Below are positions 29,744 through 62,861 of a DNA stretch of 64,000 nucleotides, in pieces. The stretch lies in the IMG/VR virus record IMGVR_UViG_3300032291_002524, positions 1 to 64,000 of that record; one strand, written 5' to 3'. The position numbers and the translations under genes were made by a program. The notes below the pieces were generated by a model. That model saw only the letters and a list, made by a program, of their open reading frames with translations. It ran no database searches and was not told the DNA's origin. The stretch comes from a virus. The stretch's first letter is position 1. Each line of letters begins with the position of its first letter.

Positions 29744-31549
29744 TTATCTCAATTCTCTTAAATCGAATGTACGAACACCATCCACAGTAATTCTACCATA
29801 GAATCTGTTGTTCACCATCTTCTTAGCGTATCTTGTCATGATACCTTTGATTGGTGTGAAGTTAAATGGATTGTACATTGTTGGTGTTAATTGTAATGGT
29901 ACGTATGGTGCGTAAACATAACCTGTATCCAACAAAGAGTTACCTTTATGACCCAACAAAACAGTATTAGGTGGGAAGTAAGGGTCTCTATACACTTGGT
30001 ATCTACCTGCCAAAGTACCTACTCTTTCAATACCCATGTTATATTGGTCTTGCTCAGGAGAAGCGTTTGACACGTGGAAGTATTCCAAATCATCAAAGAT
30101 TGCACTGATTTCAGAAGAAACAACAATCCAGTTTGCTCCACCTCTCAAAGTTGATTTGTGGATTTGAGCTGAAATTTGGTTGATAGCTGTAATCAATGTT
30201 TGATTCCAATCTTTTTGTGTATATTGTGTTAATGGGTTAGAAGCTGTACCTCTTTTCCATCCGTTGTAATCCCATCTCAAGTTCCAAGCCGCACCTTTTC
30301 TCAAATCTCTTAAGATTTCTCTATCGATTTCTGCTGCAACTTGCTCAGACAATAAAGCTGTTAATTCAGCCTCAGCGTCGATGTTATGGAATGCTGCAAC
30401 GTCTTGTGCCAATTCAGGTGACCATTGAGCTCTTAATTTTCTTTCAGTTACAGAAACAGTTACAGATTCTAAATCAAAAGAAACTTCACCAATTTGGTCA
30501 TCAAATTCCAATTCTCTGTATGCTCTAAATGTGGTTGTAAATTGTGTATTAATCGTAGCAGTTCCAGCAATTGTCGTTGTTAAACCTGAATAACCATCTA
30601 GTGAATTTGCTCCGATTGAACAAGGTCTTTGTAAATCAGCTTCTAAGTAGATGAATCCATTAGCATCACAAAGGTTATCATATGTACCACCATTTGCGCC
30701 ACCTGTTGGGAATGTTGTAGTTGTTTGAGAACCGTATTGAACGATACCTTTACCATATTTTTGAGTTACAACTCTAAATAATAGGTTTGAAGAACCCATA
30801 CCTGAAAATGCTCCACCAGCTGTTGTAACCGCTTTAACAGTCAAATCAGATAAGAATGACTCATTATCCATAACTTGACCATCAGGACCGATTAATTTAC
30901 CAGCACCTGCGTTACTGAAACCTGACATAACAAGTAACACTTTTCTATATTCACCAGCACCGTAACCTGATGTTACTAAATCTGAACCTGACCATGCAAC
31001 AGTTGAGTTAGAAGCTGTAACAGCACTGAAAGCTCCTTTAGAATAATCGAATATTCCTGGAGGGTCTAAAGTTGCTTCGTCACCTTCGTAGAATCTGTCA
31101 TACAAATTCTTATCGTTTGCAGCGTAACCAGTATCAGGTGATGCAGGTCCGTTTGGTGCTCCAAAAGGTGCGTAGTGGTTACCACCAGCTGTTGGGTCTT
31201 GACCCGTAGTGTAAGCTTGAATTTTAGGTACGAAGTAGAACAATTTACCGATAGGTAAGTTCATAGCTTGTACAGACACGATGTCGTTTGCTAACAATTT
31301 AGAGAAAACTCTTCTTACGATTGGGAAAACAACCGTTTCGAAAGAACCATCTGATGATGTGCTAGCCGCTTCGTTAATTAAGTGAGATGCTTGGTTTTCA
31401 TAAAGTTGAGCGATGTTTTCTTTAACATGACCTCTCAAATTTTCTAAGAAACCTAATTTATCCCATTTGTTGATTGTATCTTCTTTGATAACTTTAAGGT
31501 GCTTAAGACCGATATTACCAACAAGACCTGATTCTAATAATGCTCCCAT
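29744..31549 (-). CDS. Major capsid protein, T4 gp23-like
   Basis: 601 aa. The N-terminal ~60 residues are helical, then VFPIVRRVFSKLLANDIVSV and QAMNLPIGKLFYFVPK give the gp23-type HK97-fold core. A candidate maturation site HLINE/A follows residue 60, matching the T4 protease consensus (L/I)-x-E before a small residue, close to the position used in T4 gp23. Sequence is less AT-rich and more regular in codon use than its neighbours, as for a highly expressed gene. It follows the scaffold gene on the same strand with a 39-nt gap and no motif of its own. Confidence 0.88.
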   Translation of the reverse strand: MGALLESGLVGNIGLKHLKVIKEDTINKWDKLGFLENLRGHVKENIAQLYENQASHLINEAASTSSDGSFETVVFPIVRRVFSKLLANDIVSVQAMNLPIGKLFYFVPKIQAYTTGQDPTAGGNHYAPFGAPNGPASPDTGYAANDKNLYDRFYEGDEATLDPPGIFDYSKGAFSAVTASNSTVAWSGSDLVTSGYGAGEYRKVLLVMSGFSNAGAGKLIGPDGQVMDNESFLSDLTVKAVTTAGGAFSGMGSSNLLFRVVTQKYGKGIVQYGSQTTTTFPTGGANGGTYDNLCDANGFIYLEADLQRPCSIGANSLDGYSGLTTTIAGTATINTQFTTTFRAYRELEFDDQIGEVSFDLESVTVSVTERKLRAQWSPELAQDVAAFHNIDAEAELTALLSEQVAAEIDREILRDLRKGAAWNLRWDYNGWKRGTASNPLTQYTQKDWNQTLITAINQISAQIHKSTLRGGANWIVVSSEISAIFDDLEYFHVSNASPEQDQYNMGIERVGTLAGRYQVYRDPYFPPNTVLLGHKGNSLLDTGYVYAPYVPLQLTPTMYNPFNFTPIKGIMTRYAKKMVNNRFYGRITVDGVRTFDLRELR

Positions 31550-33451: not shown

Positions 33452-34165
33452 TTATCTATTTCCCAAAAAATCGTTTAATTTTGTCATTAAGTCAAGTGAT
33501 TTCGATAATCCTCCGTAATTTTTTGGTTCGTTAACCTTTTTTTCTTCTTCTAACTTCTCATCATATAATTGTCTATCATCTTTATTTAAGTAAAGATACG
33601 CGCCAGGTGTTGATGGATTCATAACTAAGTCAAAACATATAAATTCATAGTCATCTTTAACTTCATTATATTCACCTTTCTTTTCTAATGAACCAACACC
33701 ACGAGATGATACACCCATAGTGACACCTTGTCTCATTAGATTAGCCGCTATGTCCCCCTTGGTTGAAACAATCCCTCTTTCGTGAAACCCTGGTGATGTT
33801 AATAATCTTAACTTACCCATCAATACATTATCATCCCACCATACTTCATCAATAATATGTGAAACACGGTCCAAATCAATTAATGATGATTCGGGGTGAT
33901 TTAATTCCGAAGTGGACAAACCTTTTTCAATTAAATGTTGATATTTTTCAGCTTCTCTTCTTAGGATTTTTTCAGGATAAATTCTACCGTTTCTATTTGG
34001 TATTCCATACTTTTGTAATGTTGCATAAAAAACAAATGGTTTAGAATGGTCCAATTGAGTCTTTTTCCCAAAATTTTCATTAAGTGAATTTTTCCAAGAC
34101 ACAGAACCTGCATCATATTCGATTAATATCCCTTTACCAATTTCATTAGGTCCTAATATTTTCAT
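33452..34165 (-). CDS. Prohead maturation protease, T4 gp21-like
   Basis: The frame extends to 34282, but the start at 34165 (MKILGPNEIGKG) is preferred: it begins at the conserved domain, and a late motif lies 15 nt upstream inside the longer frame. From this start the protein is 237 aa. The motifs TSELNHPESSLIDLDRVSHI (catalytic His in LNHP) and TMGVSSRGVGSL (catalytic Ser) are the gp21-type serine protease signature. The enzyme cleaves scaffold and capsid N-termini at (I/L)-x-E sites during head maturation. Encoded close to scaffold, capsid and portal, as in T4. Confidence 0.88.
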   Translation of the reverse strand: MKILGPNEIGKGILIEYDAGSVSWKNSLNENFGKKTQLDHSKPFVFYATLQKYGIPNRNGRIYPEKILRREAEKYQHLIEKGLSTSELNHPESSLIDLDRVSHIIDEVWWDDNVLMGKLRLLTSPGFHERGIVSTKGDIAANLMRQGVTMGVSSRGVGSLEKKGEYNEVKDDYEFICFDLVMNPSTPGAYLYLNKDDRQLYDEKLEEEKKVNEPKNYGGLSKSLDLMTKLNDFLGNR

Positions 34166-34179
34166 AAATTGTTTTTTAT

Positions 34180-34187
34180 AATAAATA
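34180..34187 (-). promoter_or_regulatory. Candidate late promoter motif
   Basis: Sense TATTTATT, 14-15 nt upstream of the preferred protease start at 34165. Confidence 0.5.
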
Positions 34188-34193
34188 TAAGGT

Positions 34194-34652
34194 TCAAATA
34201 AAGTTTTTGTTTTTTGTTGTATCTTTAGATAGTTGAATGTCAAAATATTTTGACTTAGATAGAATATTATTATGAATTTCATTCATAATAAGTTCAACTT
34301 CATTTTTAATTTTTTCAGATTTGAAGTCACACGGTTCTTTTAAAAATAATGTTATTTCTAAATTTAAGAAACTCGATTTTGATAATTTAATACCACTTGT
34401 TCTTAAATCCATGTCAACAATAAAATTATCTTTAAATAATTTTCTATTACAAATATTTAATATTTTATGTTTTATGGTTCTTGATATTGAACCTACTGTT
34501 AAATTCCAATTTCCTCTTTCTTCTTTTGGTACCACCCAAGTTTGAATTACGATGTAAATTGATTTTAAATCTGTTGTATCAACACTACCATAATAACATT
34601 TAGCGTCACGAAACAAATTTAAACTAATCGTCTTTCCTTTTTTCATCCTCAA
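34194..34652 (-). CDS. Hypothetical protein
   Basis: 152 aa, Lys/Asn/Ile-rich, with no recognised motif. It contains IYIVIQTWVVPKEERGNWN near residue 32, suggesting a beta-sheet domain. No late motif upstream; it is divergent from the bS21 gene with a 100-nt gap. Unassigned. Confidence 0.55.
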   Translation of the reverse strand: MRMKKGKTISLNLFRDAKCYYGSVDTTDLKSIYIVIQTWVVPKEERGNWNLTVGSISRTIKHKILNICNRKLFKDNFIVDMDLRTSGIKLSKSSFLNLEITLFLKEPCDFKSEKIKNEVELIMNEIHNNILSKSKYFDIQLSKDTTKNKNFI

Positions 34653-34727
34653 ATCATAATAATTACATGTTTATTTTGGTTAAAATATACGAAAAAAAAA
34701 CTTATTAACAAAATTTATTTTAAATTG

Positions 34728-34735
34728 TATTTATA
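34728..34735 (+). promoter_or_regulatory. Candidate late promoter motif for bS21
   Basis: GTATTTATAA in sense orientation, 17 nt upstream of the bS21 start at 34753. This places a ribosomal protein gene under the same signal as structural genes. Confidence 0.5.
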
Positions 34736-34752
34736 ATTAAAACAGATTAAAC

Positions 34753-34941
34753 ATGATTTACATTGAAATAAATAAGGGTGAAAATTTAGAAAAAGCATTA
34801 AAGATTTATAAAAATAAAATTAAATCGACAAAACAAACCGAACGAATTAGAAAAAAACAAGAATTTATTAAAAAATCAGTTATTAAACGTAATATGATTA
34901 ACAAGGCAAAGTATAAACAAAAATTTATAAATAACGATTAA
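34753..34941 (+). CDS. rpsU: Ribosomal protein bS21
   Basis: 62 aa. The sequence follows Bacteroidota bS21 along its length: IEINKGENLEKALKIYKNKI, then a basic helix with RIRKKQEFIKKSVIKR and a NKAKYKQKF C-terminal helix. The usual family features, an N-terminal strand followed by two basic helices, are all there, and the length fits. bS21 sits near the 3' end of 16S rRNA in the 30S subunit and influences initiation. A phage copy could exchange into host ribosomes. It has a late-type motif and shares an operon with a membrane protein. Confidence 0.88.
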   Translation: MIYIEINKGENLEKALKIYKNKIKSTKQTERIRKKQEFIKKSVIKRNMINKAKYKQKFINND

Positions 34942-34942
34942 A

Positions 34943-35239
34943 ATGATTAAAAAGAAATTATTTTTTGGATGGACAAATATTAAATGGTTTATAACTGAAA
35001 TTATTAATTTATATACAGGTAAACCTTCCTATTTTTCGAAAAAAAGGGTTGAATCAGGTATCGCATTTTTCATCGGTCAATGGGGTATGATATATTTCGT
35101 AATTGAAAACTTATCAAAAATGACAACATCTGATATGGTACTTTGGGCCGGTGTTGAATTTGCAGTTAGTGGTTATATGGTTAACCAAATACAAAAAGAA
35201 AAAAAGAATTTAAAAGAAGATATCGAAGAAGAAGTTTAA
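34943..35239 (+). CDS. Small membrane protein, holin-like by topology
   Basis: 98 aa with two hydrophobic segments, ~residues 40-60 (AFFIGQWGMIYFVIENL) and ~65-82 (MVLWAGVEFAVSGYMV), and a charged C-terminal tail (KEKKNLKEDIEEEV). Two-helix proteins of this size are often phage holins, but no holin family is recognised. It starts one base after bS21 and is followed by a terminator. Confidence 0.5.
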   Translation: MIKKKLFFGWTNIKWFITEIINLYTGKPSYFSKKRVESGIAFFIGQWGMIYFVIENLSKMTTSDMVLWAGVEFAVSGYMVNQIQKEKKNLKEDIEEEV

Positions 35240-35240
35240 C

Positions 35241-35269
35241 AAAAAACCCCCATATTTGGGGGTTTTTTT
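35241..35269. terminator. Bidirectional hairpin terminator
   Basis: CCCCCA / TGGGGG stem (35247-35262) with a TATT loop, flanked by six A and seven T residues. It ends the bS21 operon on the plus strand and the minus-strand gene at 35268-35999. Confidence 0.88.
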
Positions 35270-36012: not shown

Positions 36013-37854
36013 TTAACTATTTAATAGTTTATCTAACTCATTTTCAATTTCTTGAATTGACTCTCTACCCTTAGATAGTTTAATACTATCAATACCTTCT
36101 GTCATATTTTCTTCTAAAATTAAATTTAAATAATCTAATTGACTTTCAGGTGTTACTTCACTTGTTGGTGGTGAGGTAGATTCACCACCAAGTCCACCTA
36201 AATCAGATGAAGACGGTACACTTCCTAAGTCACTACCTAAACCACCTAAATCAGGTGAAGGGGAACCACCACCTAAATCATCAGTTTCGGATGGAGGTGT
36301 TGCGGCTTCGCCAGGTTTTTTACCGTATAACTTATCAAGATTATCAAATAAACCTGTATGAATAATAACTTCAGGAGTTTTTTGTAATTCGGCCCCAACA
36401 GCTCTTTCAATTCTTTGTTGTTGAATATCCAACTTAATTTCTTCATCTGAAAATCCAAGAATATGTTTTTTTGCCCATGTCGTTGAAACAGGTGCAATAC
36501 CATTTCCGGGGTCGGCAACCGCTGATTTATAAAGTTCGACTTTTTCTTTCCAAGTTTCCAATTTTAATAAATCTGCCTGAGATGATGGGTTTGTTAATCC
36601 TAATGTAAAATTGGTTAATTCGTCTTCAAAACCTAATATGAATAAGTGAATAATCGCAATTTTATTCAATTCTTGAATCATCGATTTTTGAATACGATTA
36701 ATTGTTCTGGCAAATCGAATATCTTGTAATGATAAATTTTTACCGTCACCAGCAGGTTCCTCAAAACCTAAGAACGCTTTTGGTACTCGAAGAGCTGTTA
36801 ATAATTTCTTTTGAATATATTCGATATCCGCAATCTCAGATAAATTTGTCGCCCCCGCCAATGTTTCAATTGGACTTGTTTGTGCAGCATCTCTTACAGG
36901 TACAAAGAAATCTTGGTCAACAGCCATCTGATTCATTCGTAAATCAACATTACCTGTTGATGGGTCAACAACTTGGTCTCTTTTAAATTTGTTGGCAATT
37001 CTTTGAATATATGGTTCAACATCTTTGTCATCCATATTTCCGACAAATATCTTAAAAACTCGTCTTTCGGGTGCTCTTGATGTACGATAAACCAACATGG
37101 CGTCCTCAGATAATAATAATTGTTTCCAAACTCTTCTTGCCTTTTCCAACATGGAAGTACCATAAGGTAATTTTCGGTCATCACCCAATAATCTAAAATG
37201 GGCAATTTCCCATGTGTTGAACTCCATGTCTTTAACCTTCCACACAAATTTTAAAGAAGTTGCTTCTTCTGATGTATTATGTGAAGGTTTTACTTTCATC
37301 CCCCTCTCCAATCGTTCCATTTCAATGTTAGGTAATTGTTGACATCCAACGATACCTTTTTCAGGGTCTAATTTCATATAGACAAAATTATCACCGTATT
37401 TACAAGTATTGCGTGTCCACATTGGGAGATTTGTATTGATATCTAACCTGTTATTAAATAAATCCGCCAATACCCCCTTAATACGATTTGATTCAGAATA
37501 TATTTGTAATATAAAACCATCTTCATTCGTCGTTGTTGATTCTTCGGCATAAATGTCCAACGCTGCGGAAATTTCGGGTGTATATTCCATGGATTCATAA
37601 TCATAATACGATGCCAATCGTGTTGGTTCATAATAGATTGCTTGGGAATATAAATTATTCTCAATCTTACCCCATTGTTGTCCTAAGTAATAACTTTGCT
37701 GAGCTTGGAGCTTTTCCTTTTCAAATTCTTGTTTATCTGTTGTCTTTAATAGTTCTTTTTTGTCGAACTTATATATTGGCGGTTGTTGTCCTAAAGTTGA
37801 ATCAGGTCCAAAAACTTTCGAAAGTCGTTGCCAAAGTGTAAATTGTTGTGCCAT
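36013..37854 (-). CDS. Portal vertex protein, T4 gp20-like
   Basis: 613 aa. N-terminal YLGQQWGKIENNLYS and PEISAALDIYAEES, a central MWTRNTCKYGDNFVYMKL, then YRTSRAPERRVFKI, DPSTGNVDL and RVPKAFLGF follow the order of T4-type portals. The C-terminal ~90 residues are Gly/Ser/Pro-rich, then a short helix. The portal forms the dodecameric ring through which DNA enters. It lies 37 nt downstream of the terminase gene on the same strand with no late motif of its own, so the two are likely co-transcribed. Confidence 0.88.
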   Translation of the reverse strand: MAQQFTLWQRLSKVFGPDSTLGQQPPIYKFDKKELLKTTDKQEFEKEKLQAQQSYYLGQQWGKIENNLYSQAIYYEPTRLASYYDYESMEYTPEISAALDIYAEESTTTNEDGFILQIYSESNRIKGVLADLFNNRLDINTNLPMWTRNTCKYGDNFVYMKLDPEKGIVGCQQLPNIEMERLERGMKVKPSHNTSEEATSLKFVWKVKDMEFNTWEIAHFRLLGDDRKLPYGTSMLEKARRVWKQLLLSEDAMLVYRTSRAPERRVFKIFVGNMDDKDVEPYIQRIANKFKRDQVVDPSTGNVDLRMNQMAVDQDFFVPVRDAAQTSPIETLAGATNLSEIADIEYIQKKLLTALRVPKAFLGFEEPAGDGKNLSLQDIRFARTINRIQKSMIQELNKIAIIHLFILGFEDELTNFTLGLTNPSSQADLLKLETWKEKVELYKSAVADPGNGIAPVSTTWAKKHILGFSDEEIKLDIQQQRIERAVGAELQKTPEVIIHTGLFDNLDKLYGKKPGEAATPPSETDDLGGGSPSPDLGGLGSDLGSVPSSSDLGGLGGESTSPPTSEVTPESQLDYLNLILEENMTEGIDSIKLSKGRESIQEIENELDKLLNS

Positions 37855-37891: not shown

Positions 37892-39664
37892 TTATCTTCT
37901 TCCGTTGAATAACCATAAATAGTTTTGATAATCCGTTTTAGTTGGATTGGTACCAAAACTAGTCCCATATGATGATGGTGACATAACCGGAAGACCAGGG
38001 TTAAATTCTAACATTTTTTGTGATGAATCATTTTTCACAACATCCCAAGAATTTAACATCGCCTTTGTTTGTTCTGTTACTTTTTCTAATTGACTATATG
38101 AATGTTGTCCAACATATAGTGCCATTGATATTGACATAATCAAATCGTCGTGATGACCTTTCATGTGGTCAGGTCTACCATTTATAAATACAAATGTGTT
38201 TAATTCACCAAGTAATCGCGATGAATAAACTTTAAAACCATGTCTTAACGATTCCTCAAATGCATTAATGATTTGTACACGTTTAGAGTTAAAGTTAATT
38301 CCCGGTATTTTTTCCATAGCCTTTGAGTTATATTCCCAAACATTAGCATAATTAACACCATCAACATATAGATTTCTATAACCCATTTCTTGTAATTTTC
38401 TGGAGGTTGAAACGCCCATACCACCTGTAATATCAATTACAATGAAAGCGTCATAATATGTTCCCCACTTATATGCAATCTCGGCAGCAACATCAGGAGG
38501 TACCTTTCCAAGATATTCGGCAACTTGTTCCCTTTCGTCAAAATCAATGATTTGAAATGATGTATAATCTTCAGAATCACCTCGTGACACATCAATACCC
38601 ATTATGTATTTATGACCAACCTGAGGTTCTTTCCAAATCCATAATTGATTTTGTACCATTTTACTCTCGGGGTTACACACAAATTCAGTTCTTATTTTTT
38701 CGATAATTCCACTATCAATAACATTATCACCTGAACCTAGAAAATTACATTCCAATTCCTGTGATATTTTTCTTTTGTCGAATTTTAATTTTTTGGCCAT
38801 TTTTTCATACCACTCTGAATGTGGTTTATAACCATCTTTCATTAATTTTTTAAAATCGTCAAAATTTCTTTGGTCTTGTGGAACATTTTCGTAAGAAATT
38901 ATTTCAACATCTGTATATTCTTCTCTATTAAGATAATAATGAACAAGGTCTTTAACTTTAATAAACTGAATATCTTTTGTATATCGTGGGTCTCGCCACC
39001 AAAACATTTCAGTTACTTTAAAATCATTCATTCCTTTAATTGATTGGTCATATATTGGATAATATATCGAATCATAACCATTTGGTGTTGAAATAACTAT
39101 AACTTTACCACCTGTTGAAAGTGACGCCATACACGCCGCCCAAAAATCGTCACCAGCGTCAATATACGCAGCCTCATCAAATATCAATATAGTGGGGGTG
39201 TATCCTCTAAGAGCGTCGTTAGATGTTGCCACGGCCTTTACCTCACAACCATTAGTTATTTTCCAATGTCGAGCGGCATTTTTTTCAGGAGCAAAATTAA
39301 CACCCATCCAATCTGGCCATTGTTCAGTAAATTGTCTGATTTTGTTTGCAAACTCAACAGAAGTATCTAATTTGTTTGCGATTATTAGAATTTTCTCAGG
39401 TTTTTCTTTTTTTGCAAATACAATTTTTTTAGATGCCCAAGCCGCGGTTACTGTGGATACTCCGGCCTGTCGGTATTTTAATGCAATATTTTCATCAAAA
39501 TTATCATAATCATCCACCAATTGAATTTGGTCGGAAAATAAGTCTAAAGGTACGAATTTTTGAACAGTATTATCATATGTTTGTAAATACGTTCTCAACG
39601 AATATGGTGTACTTTTAATACACTTAGCATATTCGATTAGTACTTGTTCTCTTGTTAATCCCAT
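37892..39664 (-). CDS. Terminase large subunit, T4 gp17-like
   Basis: 590 aa. The ATPase half has the Walker A-type loop KYRQAGVSTVTAAW near residue 62 and Walker B ILIFDEAAYI with catalytic Glu near residue 170. VISTPNGYDS is motif III. The nuclease half has GIDVSRGDSEDYTSF, VIDITGGMG and HMKGHHDDLIMS carrying the metal-binding acidic residues. The enzyme cuts and packages phage DNA. A candidate late promoter lies five nt upstream. The small terminase subunit was not identified. Confidence 0.92.
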   Translation of the reverse strand: MGLTREQVLIEYAKCIKSTPYSLRTYLQTYDNTVQKFVPLDLFSDQIQLVDDYDNFDENIALKYRQAGVSTVTAAWASKKIVFAKKEKPEKILIIANKLDTSVEFANKIRQFTEQWPDWMGVNFAPEKNAARHWKITNGCEVKAVATSNDALRGYTPTILIFDEAAYIDAGDDFWAACMASLSTGGKVIVISTPNGYDSIYYPIYDQSIKGMNDFKVTEMFWWRDPRYTKDIQFIKVKDLVHYYLNREEYTDVEIISYENVPQDQRNFDDFKKLMKDGYKPHSEWYEKMAKKLKFDKRKISQELECNFLGSGDNVIDSGIIEKIRTEFVCNPESKMVQNQLWIWKEPQVGHKYIMGIDVSRGDSEDYTSFQIIDFDEREQVAEYLGKVPPDVAAEIAYKWGTYYDAFIVIDITGGMGVSTSRKLQEMGYRNLYVDGVNYANVWEYNSKAMEKIPGINFNSKRVQIINAFEESLRHGFKVYSSRLLGELNTFVFINGRPDHMKGHHDDLIMSISMALYVGQHSYSQLEKVTEQTKAMLNSWDVVKNDSSQKMLEFNPGLPVMSPSSYGTSFGTNPTKTDYQNYLWLFNGRR

Positions 39665-45469: not shown

Positions 45470-45500
45470 GTTGATTATCTAAAAATTAATTTTATATTTG
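45470..45500 (+). promoter_or_regulatory. Host-type promoter of the clpC-like gene
   Basis: GTTG at 45470-45473, 19 nt, then TATATTTG at 45493-45500, matching the Bacteroidota TTTG / TAnnTTTG arrangement. The predicted transcription start falls at or just before the ATG at 45507, so the mRNA would be leaderless or nearly so. Confidence 0.6.
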
Positions 45501-45506
45501 TGGTGT

Positions 45507-47567
45507 ATGATAGATTTTGACGATAATCAAGAAGCAGGAAAGAAGAAAACTTCCAAATCAGAAAATACGGGAAGTTCAACCCCCGTTTTAGATAATTTTT
45601 CTCGTGATTTAATTAAATTGGCATCCGAAGGTAAATTAGACCCCGTTATTGGTCGAGATATTGAAATTAATAGACTTGCCCAAATTATATCAAGGAGAAA
45701 GAAAAATAACCCAATATTAATCGGTGAGCCCGGTTGTGGAAAAACAGCTGTGGTTGAAGGATTGGCCATCAAAATTTTTGAAGGTAATTGCCCTCAAAAT
45801 TTGTTAGATAAACGAATTGTTAGTTTGGATATGACATCAATCGTTGCAGGTACCAAATATCGTGGTCAATTTGAAGAACGTTTAAAAGTTATTTTAGATG
45901 AACTTCGAGATAATCATGAAACCATTGTGTTTATTGATGAAATTCACACAATTATAGGTGCGGGTAATTCTTCGGGGTCACTTGACGCATCCAACATCTT
46001 TAAACCTGCACTTGCACGTGGAGAACTCCAATGTATCGGAGCAACAACCTTGGACGAATATCGGGAACATATTGAAAAGGACGGAGCATTGGAAAGACGG
46101 TTCCAAAAGGTTTTAGTTGAACCATCTTCAATTGAAGATACAATCACAATCCTAATGAGAGCCAAGGAAAACTATGAAAAACACCATAAAGTTTTCTTCA
46201 GTGAAGAATCAATTAAAGCATGTGTTCATTTGGCCGATAGGTATATAACTGACCGAAGTTTTCCTGATAAAGCAATTGATATCATGGATGAAGTCGGAGC
46301 TCGTAGTCAAATCGCTGTTAAATTACCGGAAGTTATTGAACAGTTAAAAGAAGAAGCTGAAAAAATAAAACAGAGTAAGTTAGATGTTGTTAGAAATCAG
46401 AGATTTGAGGAAGCCGCAGAACTTCGTGACCGTGAACGAAAAGTGTTAAAACAATTACAAGAAGAAAAAGAAAAGTTTGAAAATGACCGTTTAACAAATA
46501 AAAAACTTGTCGATGAGAACATGGTGTATGAAGTGGTTGCATCAATGACAAAGATACCAATCACCAAATTGACACAGTCAGAATCAGAATCACTACTTCA
46601 ATTAGAACAAAATTTACAAAATTCAGTTATTGGTCAAGATGATGCTGTTAGTAAAATTGCAAAGGCAATCCGACGAAATCGTGTTGGGATTAAAGAACCT
46701 AACAAACCAATTGGTTCATTTATTTTTCTTGGGTCCACAGGTATTGGTAAAACCCATTTGGCTAAACAATTAGCAAAAGAAGTTTTTGGTGATTCGGACG
46801 CATTAATTCGAATGGATATGTCAGAATATCAAGAAAAATTTACAATGTCTCGTTTGATTGGTTCACCTCCGGGTTATGTTGGATTTAATGAAGGAGGTCA
46901 ATTGACTGAACAGGTTAGAAATAAACCATATTCGGTAATATTATTTGACGAAATCGAAAAGGCCCATAAAGATATCTTCACTTTATTGTTACAAACAATG
47001 GACGAAGGGTTCTTAACCGATAGTAATGGTAGAAAAATTAATTTCAAAAATACCGTTATTATTATGACATCTAACATTGGTGCTAGAAAAGTTCAAGAAT
47101 TCGGTGCTGGTGTTGGTTTTGGCACAAGTGCTAAAATGGATAAAGAACTTGAAATAAAGAAAATGGCAGTAGAGGATGAACTGAAGAAGTTTTTCCCACC
47201 TGAATTTATAAATCGTGTTGATGATATTGTATTCTTTAATTCATTAAAAGAAGATGAAGTGAATCAGATTGTTAAAATTGAATTATCAAAATTAACCAAC
47301 AGACTTTCATCTATGAACTATAAAATCGAAATAGGTGACGAAATGTTGAAACATATTTGTGAAATTGGTTTCGATGAAAAGTTTGGGGCCAGACCTATTA
47401 AAAGAGCAATTCAAAGTCAAATTGAAGACTTTATTTCCGATGAAATATTAAAAGGTAATTTAATCACTGATATTGAATATACTGTGGATTATATAGATGG
47501 TTCACCTTTATTAATAACCAAAGATTCAAAACCGAAACGAGTAAAGAAAAAGAAAGAAACTGAATAA
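45507..47567 (+). CDS. ClpC/ClpA-type AAA+ unfoldase without N-terminal repeat domain
   Basis: 686 aa from the ATG at 45507 (a TTG nine bases earlier lies in the promoter). There is a ~28-residue low-complexity leader, then two AAA+ modules. The first has Walker A GEPGCGKT at residues 73-80, TIVFIDEIHTIIGAG as Walker B, and the RRFQK arginine region. The second has GSTGIGKT at ~409-416 and VILFDEIEKAH. Between them lies a UVR-like segment (RNQRFEEAAELRDRE). The VGF tripeptide at residues 536-538 is the ClpP-docking loop of ClpC/ClpA enzymes. The Clp_N substrate/adaptor domain is absent. Expected to feed substrates to ClpP, possibly the phage ClpP at 62181. Confidence 0.9.
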   Translation: MIDFDDNQEAGKKKTSKSENTGSSTPVLDNFSRDLIKLASEGKLDPVIGRDIEINRLAQIISRRKKNNPILIGEPGCGKTAVVEGLAIKIFEGNCPQNLLDKRIVSLDMTSIVAGTKYRGQFEERLKVILDELRDNHETIVFIDEIHTIIGAGNSSGSLDASNIFKPALARGELQCIGATTLDEYREHIEKDGALERRFQKVLVEPSSIEDTITILMRAKENYEKHHKVFFSEESIKACVHLADRYITDRSFPDKAIDIMDEVGARSQIAVKLPEVIEQLKEEAEKIKQSKLDVVRNQRFEEAAELRDRERKVLKQLQEEKEKFENDRLTNKKLVDENMVYEVVASMTKIPITKLTQSESESLLQLEQNLQNSVIGQDDAVSKIAKAIRRNRVGIKEPNKPIGSFIFLGSTGIGKTHLAKQLAKEVFGDSDALIRMDMSEYQEKFTMSRLIGSPPGYVGFNEGGQLTEQVRNKPYSVILFDEIEKAHKDIFTLLLQTMDEGFLTDSNGRKINFKNTVIIMTSNIGARKVQEFGAGVGFGTSAKMDKELEIKKMAVEDELKKFFPPEFINRVDDIVFFNSLKEDEVNQIVKIELSKLTNRLSSMNYKIEIGDEMLKHICEIGFDEKFGARPIKRAIQSQIEDFISDEILKGNLITDIEYTVDYIDGSPLLITKDSKPKRVKKKKETE

Positions 47568-50833: not shown

Positions 50834-51216
50834 GGGGATGACACAGAATTGATTGGCGTGGTTAGTCAATTGGTGCACGTATGAGCTGAATTAACTCATT
50901 AAAAACTGATTTAAAAACACAAACGGCAACGTTTTAAATAAAATGGCTGCTTGCGGTTTAATCCGTGAAGACGCTGCTGTTGTAGCTTAATCAGCACAAC
51001 ACACTCAGGTCGGGGGACATATAACCTAGGAACAGAAGTCTTTAGAGGTGTGGTTTCTATCTTAAAAGAAACAAGTGGAGGATTAGTTCTCAGTAAACCG
51101 AACCACTATAAAATAAGGGAATTGTGAATTTCGGAACATTAGCAAATGTTGACCTAAACGTGTAGGACCTTTTGGTTAAGACGAACAAGACCGCGGGGCA
51201 GTGCCGCGCATCTCCA
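50834..51216 (+). ncRNA. ssrA: tmRNA (transfer-messenger RNA), one-piece
   Basis: 383 nt. Acceptor helix GGGGATG (50834-50840) with CATCTCC (51209-51215), then unpaired A; CCA is not encoded. T-arm helix CGCGG/CCGCG is directly adjacent. Long helix: TTAGTCAA (50862-50869) with TTGGTTAA (51172-51179) and TGCACGT (50874-50880) with ACGTGTA (51158-51164), matching the conserved GGUGCAUG region of other tmRNAs. ATGAG/CTCAT hairpin at 50881-50899. The tag frame runs 50919-50990, with its stop in the loop of a GCTG/CAGC helix, the normal arrangement. tmRNA with SmpB frees stalled ribosomes and tags the product for proteolysis. The T-loop is atypical. Confidence 0.9.
50919..50990 (+). other. tmRNA tag reading frame, 23 codons
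   Basis: Aligning the tmRNA with that of E. coli places the resume codon at ACA (50919). The frame reads TNGNVLNKMAACGLIREDAA, then VVA and stop TAA at 50988-50990. It is about twice the length of common tags and ends AAVVA, hydrophobic like the usual ALAA degron but not identical. The resume codon is inferred by alignment and could be off by one codon. Confidence 0.7.
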
Positions 51217-51270
51217 GGCTCACAATTGAATACCTCCACGTGGTGTGAGCTGGGTAACGCTAAATTCAAT
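51217..51270 (+). other. H-type pseudoknot in the tmRNA 3' trailer
   Basis: Stem 1 is GGCTCACA (51217-51224) with TGTGAGCT (51244-51251), one G-U pair. Its loop contains ATTGAAT (51225-51231), which is perfectly complementary to ATTCAAT (51264-51270). It begins at the first base after the tmRNA discriminator. It may guide 3' processing or block exonucleases (inference). Confidence 0.55.
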
Positions 51271-51296
51271 AATCATTACAGTTATTAATTAAAAAT

Positions 51297-62180: not shown

Positions 62181-62861
62181 ATGAACAATACAGATTTTAA
62201 AAACTATTTTACCAAACACTTGGGTAAAGGCTCATTAATGTTGGATTATTACAACCAAAGAATTGAAGATTCGATGACACCTTATATTTTGGAAGAAAGA
62301 GAGATGAGAGTGACCCAGATGGATATTTTTTCACGATTAATGAGGGACCGTTTACTATGGGTGGCGGGGCCTGTTGATGATAACATGTCCACAGTTGTCC
62401 AAGCACAATTAATGTATTTAGATTCGGTTAATAATATGGACATAACGATGCACATTGATTCGCCAGGTGGCTCTGTTAAATCCGGTTTATCGATGATTGA
62501 CGTTATGGATTATATATCATGTGATATTCACACCATTAATACCGGTATGGCAGCATCCATGGGTTCCGTGTTGTTAGGCGCTGGAACCAAAGGTAAACGT
62601 TCGTCTTTAAGATTTTCACGTACCATGTTACACCAATCTTCAGGGGGTTTCCGTGGAAATATCCAAGACGCTAAGATTGATATGATTGAGTGGGAGAAAG
62701 TGAATAAGATTTTATTTGATTTGTTAGGTTCATATTGTGATAAATCGGCAGAACAAGTAATGGAAGACGCTTCTCGTGACCTGTGGTTAGATTCCAAATC
62801 TGCGTTAGAATACGGAATTATTGACGAAATTATTACATCAAAAAATAAAATGAAAAAATAA
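62181..62861 (+). CDS. clpP: ClpP-type serine protease
   Basis: 226 aa. Catalytic Ser126 in GMAASMGS, His151 in TMLHQSS and Asp200 in SRDLWL; the Ser-His and His-Asp spacings (25 and 49) are the same as in E. coli ClpP. HIDSPGGSVKSGLSM is the conserved oxyanion region. The N-terminal ~50 residues are longer than the usual ClpP N-terminus and could shape interaction with an unfoldase. An AGGAGA lies 16-11 nt upstream of the ATG, inside the end of the preceding gene, but this spacing is too long for a normal Shine-Dalgarno. It is a natural partner of the clpC-like gene 15 kb away. Confidence 0.92.
   Translation: MNNTDFKNYFTKHLGKGSLMLDYYNQRIEDSMTPYILEEREMRVTQMDIFSRLMRDRLLWVAGPVDDNMSTVVQAQLMYLDSVNNMDITMHIDSPGGSVKSGLSMIDVMDYISCDIHTINTGMAASMGSVLLGAGTKGKRSSLRFSRTMLHQSSGGFRGNIQDAKIDMIEWEKVNKILFDLLGSYCDKSAEQVMEDASRDLWLDSKSALEYGIIDEIITSKNKMKK

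Follow-up and report, generated by a model that had tools for sequence, protein, structure and literature searches.

The bS21 gene of this phage is predicted to lie outside the feedback loop by which a Bacteroidota host controls its own bS21. The gene (rpsU-like, 62 aa, ATG start) occupies positions 34753 to 34941 on the + strand of the window, the 64,000-nucleotide stretch of DNA that was analysed, and its leader (34736 to 34752, +) is without any Shine-Dalgarno (SD) sequence. The new element of the present analysis is the contrast in SD between phage bS21 leaders and the leaders of Flavobacteriales rpsU genes. The prediction is the same whether the absence of the SD is a default of the genome or a selected loss.

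The Pfam S21 family (PF01165) matched the open reading frame at 34753 to 34941 with 31.3 bits (cut-off 27), over profile positions 2 to 54 of 55, and this is the sole PF01165 match across the full 106,315-bp viral record. The top match in the PDB was F. johnsoniae bS21 (7jil_z, E 7e-10, aligned over residues 1 to 57) and the second was another bS21. A chance open reading frame is ruled out by the Pfam match, by synteny at 75 viral loci and by selection (see below), and the preliminary description was correct in placing a Bacteroidota-type bS21 here. Against the NCBI cellular equivalog TIGR00030 (cut-off 28.95) the phage protein scored 23.8. Three viral relatives were also below this cut-off (24.2, 26.8 and one without a listing), and a Flavobacterium host bS21 scored 54.7. 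Since it passes PF01165 and, like the viral relatives but unlike the Flavobacterium host, misses TIGR00030, the phage protein is, on profile scores, a homolog within a diverged viral bS21 subfamily outside the cellular equivalog.

Residues were compared across aligned bS21 proteins, 78 viral and 100 from hosts. At positions 21, 23, 24, 27 and 28 hosts and viruses had nearly separate sets of residues. Position 27 is Gly in 99 of the 100 hosts, and every one of the 78 viral proteins has Lys or Arg there; position 28 is Thr, Val or Ile in hosts and Gln in 76 of the 78. Host Phe or Tyr at position 23 is replaced by Val, Ile, Leu or Ala, and host Asp or Glu at position 24 mostly by Ile or Tyr. The phage protein shares its length, Tyr54 and alignment over residues 1 to 57 with F. 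johnsoniae bS21 (7JIL; PMC9976891) and differs from it by Phe23 to Ile, Asp24 to Lys, Gly27 to Lys and Thr28 to Gln. Position 54 is Tyr in 74 viral proteins (the 34753 to 34941 protein among them), His in three and Phe in one. Tyr or another aromatic residue at this position, which stacks on the 16S tail, was taken as the mark of a Bacteroidia-type bS21 that occludes the anti-SD, and the phage protein carries it. The earlier expectation that this bS21 would occupy the pocket in which the anti-SD is hidden is thereby supported as a prediction from sequence. Keeping Tyr54, the phage protein should preserve occlusion of the anti-SD and not remove it. Any change in selectivity is more likely to arise via the altered 23–28 segment or via an effect on host rpsU; selectivity for phage mRNAs through the 23–28 segment is a possible consequence of its altered residues.

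A phylogeny of viral versus host bS21 had been proposed as a check in the preliminary description. In the tree obtained here the viral proteins formed a single clade (support 100/99) apart from the hosts, with the 34753 to 34941 protein as its deepest branch under a midpoint root. The inner branches are unsure because the tree was made from 64 columns; an E. coli bS21 row served as a distant row only. Pooled pN/pS over close pairs of viral bS21 genes was approximately 0.08, indicating purifying selection.

Synthesis of bS21 in F. johnsoniae is under feedback from the protein itself: ribosomes free of bS21 have an exposed anti-SD and translate rpsU via an extended SD of 9 to 13 pairs, and this autoregulation has been established experimentally (PMC9976891). 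SD strength was scored here as the pairing energy of the 25 nt 5′ of the start with the 16S tail UCACCUCCUUUCU; this one common tail was used for all energies and may differ from each host's own. All 51 distinct Flavobacteriales leaders of host rpsU had an extended SD (−17.5 to −22.1 kcal/mol, 11 to 13 bp). The 70 distinct viral bS21 leaders (150 genes) had a median of −0.5 kcal/mol and a strongest value of −7.2 kcal/mol, so that an extended SD at or below −9 kcal/mol was found in none of the 70. The leader under study, unlike that of F. johnsoniae, lacks the extended SD: it scored −0.5 kcal/mol for the 25 nt before its ATG, against the threshold of below −13 kcal/mol that was used to define an autoregulated rpsU. 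In a wider Bacteroidota sample, approximately 20 of 30 rpsU genes were at or below −13 kcal/mol, the total of 33 for this sample counting L163, which is viral, and two genomes (L161 and L162) that came in via host loci. Two Tyr54-type hosts of the wider sample (L167 and L190) had rpsU genes without a strong SD.

Avoidance of the SD extends across the phage genome. Values at or below −7 kcal/mol were obtained for 11 of 153 genes, compared with 22 in mock windows, and the statement in the preliminary description that the genes of this phage lack SD sequences therefore stands. Because SD-less leaders are the rule for all phage genes, the absence of an SD before bS21 need not be an adaptation, and it could reflect a genome-wide default rather than a selected loss. 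Phage bS21 is considered in relation to the feedback loop by McNutt et al. 2023 (PMC9976891); phage bS21 leaders are not reported in the text consulted. Promoters and autoregulation are not mentioned by Chen et al. 2022 (PMC9723584). No literature on phage bS21 leaders and autoregulation was found in a search made largely outside subscription papers.

The working model, which is considered somewhat more probable than its negation, is that phage bS21 replaces host bS21 on the 30S subunit during infection, with consequences for the host feedback loop. Entry of phage bS21 into host ribosomes has been proposed by Chen et al. (PMC9723584), and the model is favoured by the entry of a pelagiphage bS21 into E. 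coli 70S ribosomes (PMC6375957) and by the late transcription of bS21 genes of this kind with capsid genes in a lake (PMC9723584). The phage protein, being of the Bacteroidota type, would take the place of host bS21 on 30S subunits. As its mRNA has no SD, translation would not depend on bS21-free ribosomes and would not be shut off as ribosomes fill. Ribosomes with phage bS21 would count as 'replete' in the host loop, because the phage protein keeps the C-terminal part that covers the anti-SD. With the anti-SD covered, less host rpsU would be translated, since its translation requires that sequence to be free, and the bS21 pool would drift towards the phage version. A covered anti-SD would also support SD-less initiation. 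More weakly, the 23–28 segment might shift initiation towards phage mRNAs in late infection. The feedback part taken by itself, namely that phage bS21 turns down host rpsU, is put forward tentatively and given less than even weight. An extended version is more doubtful again. Here an old viral lineage without the SD switch of rpsU would keep the part of the protein that is sensed, fill ribosomes freely and silence host bS21 via the host's own circuit; the altered 23–28 segment, tmRNA and Clp would then round off the capture of initiation, rescue and turnover. The question bears on whether a virus makes 'specialised ribosomes' by swapping one protein, and the relevant bS21 circuit has already been worked out in Bacteroidota. 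The model predicts that phage bS21 silences an SD-bearing rpsU reporter and that its own mRNA is immune.

Phage bS21 could alternatively serve in ribosome maintenance, replenishing a subunit that is limiting and loosely bound, and so keeping ribosomes replete and SD-less phage mRNAs well initiated, with selectivity unchanged. This is the best of the alternatives, and is judged unlikely. It draws support from the poor initiation of F. johnsoniae ribosomes without bS21 on SD-less mRNAs (PMC9976891), from the SD-less phage genes, and from the retention of Tyr54 and the C-terminal part. Maintenance explains neither the fixed viral-specific changes at 23–28 nor the fact that the viral clade has long stood apart.

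The tmRNA given in the preliminary description is present at full length at 50834 to 51216 (+), with the predicted tag GNVLNKMAACGLIREDAAVVA. Rfam with permissive settings returned it at 47.2 bits (cut-off 47, E 1.4e-15); ARAGORN and the fast filters of Rfam gave no match. The tmRNA of a close relative (L369) has 82% identity and a compensated T-stem pair, and its tag GNVLNKMAACGLIREEAAVVA differs from GNVLNKMAACGLIREDAAVVA by one residue amid silent changes. Both tags were translated by hand from the tmRNA sequences. The tag (50930 to 50992, +) is conserved in the phage family, at approximately 21 residues ending in VVA or similar. The T-loop (51190 to 51208, +) is GGCAGUG and not of the usual UUCGA type. 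As L369 has a similar loop (GGCAGUA) together with the compensated stem pair, the odd T-loop looks like a feature of the clade and not an error.

Among 15 long relatives, a full tmRNA was found in 14 and a match to a Clp-type unfoldase also in 14. The unfoldase of the window (45498 to 47567, +) is of the ClpA/B/C type without an N-domain and has a VGF loop; a VGF or IGF loop was kept in all ten unfoldases read among relatives. In ClpC/ClpA-type proteins this loop binds ClpP. A ClpP gene lies at 62313 to 62840 (+), with a counterpart in one of the 15 long relatives. No SmpB was found in the 64-kb window, and approximately 30 tRNAs lie at 74 to 94 kb of the viral record. The set of tmRNA, Clp and tRNAs is in keeping with a phage investing in translation, and a link between this set and bS21 function may be inferred. 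Huge phages with tmRNA and S21 were already known (PMC7162821); Chen et al. mention the Clp protease and not tmRNA (PMC9723584). A protease against host bS21 has been suggested (PMC9976891). A dedicated protease of this kind was rejected here: despite conservation of the Clp unfoldase, ClpP occurs only in the window and in one of 15 relatives, and nothing points to host bS21 as the target.

Conservation of tmRNA and the Clp unfoldase in 14 of 15 long relatives would also suit host shut-off by ribosome modification, in which ribosomes carrying viral bS21 would be impaired selectively on host mRNAs, with the stalled products cleared by tmRNA and Clp. The bS21 of pelagiphage HTVC008M (Mizuno et al. 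2019, PMC6375957), likewise encoded by a phage, of a different host phylum, enters E. coli 70S ribosomes and strongly impairs them in vitro. A poisoning role is possible because those ribosomes were left nearly inactive (~5%). The phage behind that result infects a different host, so that the effect may reflect incompatibility; the phage mRNAs require the same ribosomes, and tmRNA and SmpB are generally known from huge phages (PMC7162821). Shut-off is accordingly considered improbable.

An HDV-like ribozyme (51217 to 51275, +) starts directly after the discriminator base of the tmRNA (A51216). It was matched by RF01787 (31.8 bits against a cut-off of 37; local E 6e-5) and, from the same first base at 51217, by RF02682 (27.5 bits). 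By eye it has P1 (GGCUCAC/GUGAGCU), P2 (AUUGAAU/AUUCAAU), P3 (ACC/GGU), a GGGUAAC joint and GCUAA; an HDV-like ribozyme is a pseudoknot, and a nested fold is therefore uninformative. Theta ribozymes are known next to tRNAs of phages (PMC10879173, a paper without mention of tmRNA); by analogy, cleavage here would form the mature 3′ end of the tmRNA. The ribozyme was absent from the 11 relatives' tmRNAs that were read. The ribozyme core was matched four times in a scan of viral contigs, in no case with an evident upstream tmRNA in the adjoining sequence read. Between tRNA genes of another contig (L003:4248-4310, +), the Rfam family 'freshwater-1' was matched at 70.1 bits (cut-off 72).

With bS21 as query, 75 viral loci were found in IMG/VR, all of which share the place and orientation of bS21. 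Within reach of the contigs, one flank consists of the major capsid protein (MCP), scaffold, 69-aa, protease and 152-aa genes, and the other of the 243-aa, portal and terminase large subunit (TerL) genes; both flanks are on the strand opposite bS21. In the window these include the major capsid protein gp23 (29744 to 31549, −; PF07068, E 9e-73), a gp21-like prohead core protease whose true start is probably internal (33452 to 34282, −; PF03420, E 3e-21), the portal gp20 (36013 to 37854, −; PF07230, E 5e-77) and TerL (37892 to 39664, −; PF03237, E 8e-11). These Pfam matches on the minus strand bear out the earlier assignment of T4-like structural genes. The nearest annotated phages for capsid and terminase were Immutovirus immuto (a Flavobacterium phage, NC_055915), an uncultured huge phage and a Microcystis phage. 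Immuto, one of the closest records whose Bacteroidota host is named (MCP ~41%, TerL ~27%), has the same TerL-portal-protease-MCP order but, unlike the phage here, has no bS21 and carries all head genes on one strand.

The use of bS21 by a T4-like Bacteroidota phage had been put forward as notable. The same arrangement and use were given by Chen et al. 2022 (PMC9723584) for 47 Bacteroidetes phages, and because that work and Mizuno et al. (PMC6375957) precede it, the phage bS21 here is not new in kind. Compared by layout description, the phages of Chen et al. (clades a–e) also have bS21 on the opposite strand inside TerL/portal/protease/MCP, a conserved divergent gene and Bacteroidetes hosts, and share Tyr54 and a divergent N-terminal half of bS21. 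The 106-kb record differs from them in an extra co-directional 98-aa gene behind bS21. Lake data showed late transcription of such bS21 genes alongside capsid genes (PMC9723584). An extra-ribosomal or virion role, in which a small basic protein produced next to the head genes would be packaged or would bind nucleic acid, has in its favour the net charge of +13, the fixed place among head genes and the packaging suggested by Chen et al. (PMC9723584), and is very improbable given that a mere structural role would not require the anti-SD-contacting Tyr54 of 74 of 78 viral proteins, the rest having His or Phe.

The conserved divergent neighbour of bS21 is a 152-aa open reading frame (150 aa from ATG; 34194 to 34646, −), whose position and orientation are those of 'bS21_CN' in Chen et al. 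Used as query, it gave 80 loci, of which 73 had bS21, three were cut by a contig end and four were cleanly without bS21. These four (L249, L252, L266 and L272) keep the 152-aa gene, with approximately 70 nt between the neighbours. As related loci lack it cleanly, bS21 is not always needed, and the candidacy of the 152-aa protein as its functional partner is weakened. An AlphaFold model of this protein (pLDDT 87) gave no confident fold match against the PDB (best E 6e-3, query-normalised TM at most ~0.4).

The 98-aa gene (34943 to 35239, +) encodes a small membrane-like protein with a weak holin match (phrog_4237, E 0.008). Its ATG lies one base past the bS21 stop, it is probably co-transcribed with bS21, and an intrinsic terminator (35241 to 35268, +) ends the operon. 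Homologs are mostly distant from bS21, adjoining it in only two (L005 and L274) of 71 encoding loci. On these counts and a modest hydropathy, the 98-aa gene was rejected as a dedicated bS21 partner or lysis gene; no obvious lysis gene lay beside it in six neighbourhoods read. The family motif (YFSKKRVESGIAF..GQWGMIYF...NQIQKEKK) is present in many large phages, and in one lineage (L336) the family gene adjoins a gene resembling glutamine synthetase.

A −10-like element, TATTTATA (34728 to 34735, +), ends 17 nt 5′ of the bS21 ATG. It is conserved before viral bS21 genes and enriched before the genes of this phage. ATATTTA was found upstream of 56 of 70 distinct viral bS21 genes (7.2 expected) and its reverse complement upstream of only four. 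Sense TATTTAT occurred within 40 nt upstream of 38 of 153 genes, compared with 6.8 in shuffles; its reverse complement ATAAATA, the core of the T4 late motif, was not clearly enriched (14 compared with 10 in shuffles). TTAACA, a −35-like element 17 nt before TATTTATA (34705 to 34710, +), appears from leader sequences to be present in the nearest relatives too; it was not returned by a generic sigma-70 scan. The late motif of T4 is sense TATAAATA, approximately 10 nt before the transcription start. The sense motif here, TATTTATA, is the reverse complement of TATAAATA and also stands upstream of many genes beyond the structural block, so the 'late-type' label of the preliminary description is unsupported, although the promoter-like element itself is real, enriched and conserved. 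In many genes of the 106-kb record, TATTTAT(A) ends 4 to 5 nt before the ATG. So near the start, it could act as a −10 element giving almost leaderless transcripts, or possibly as a translation signal in an SD-less phage.
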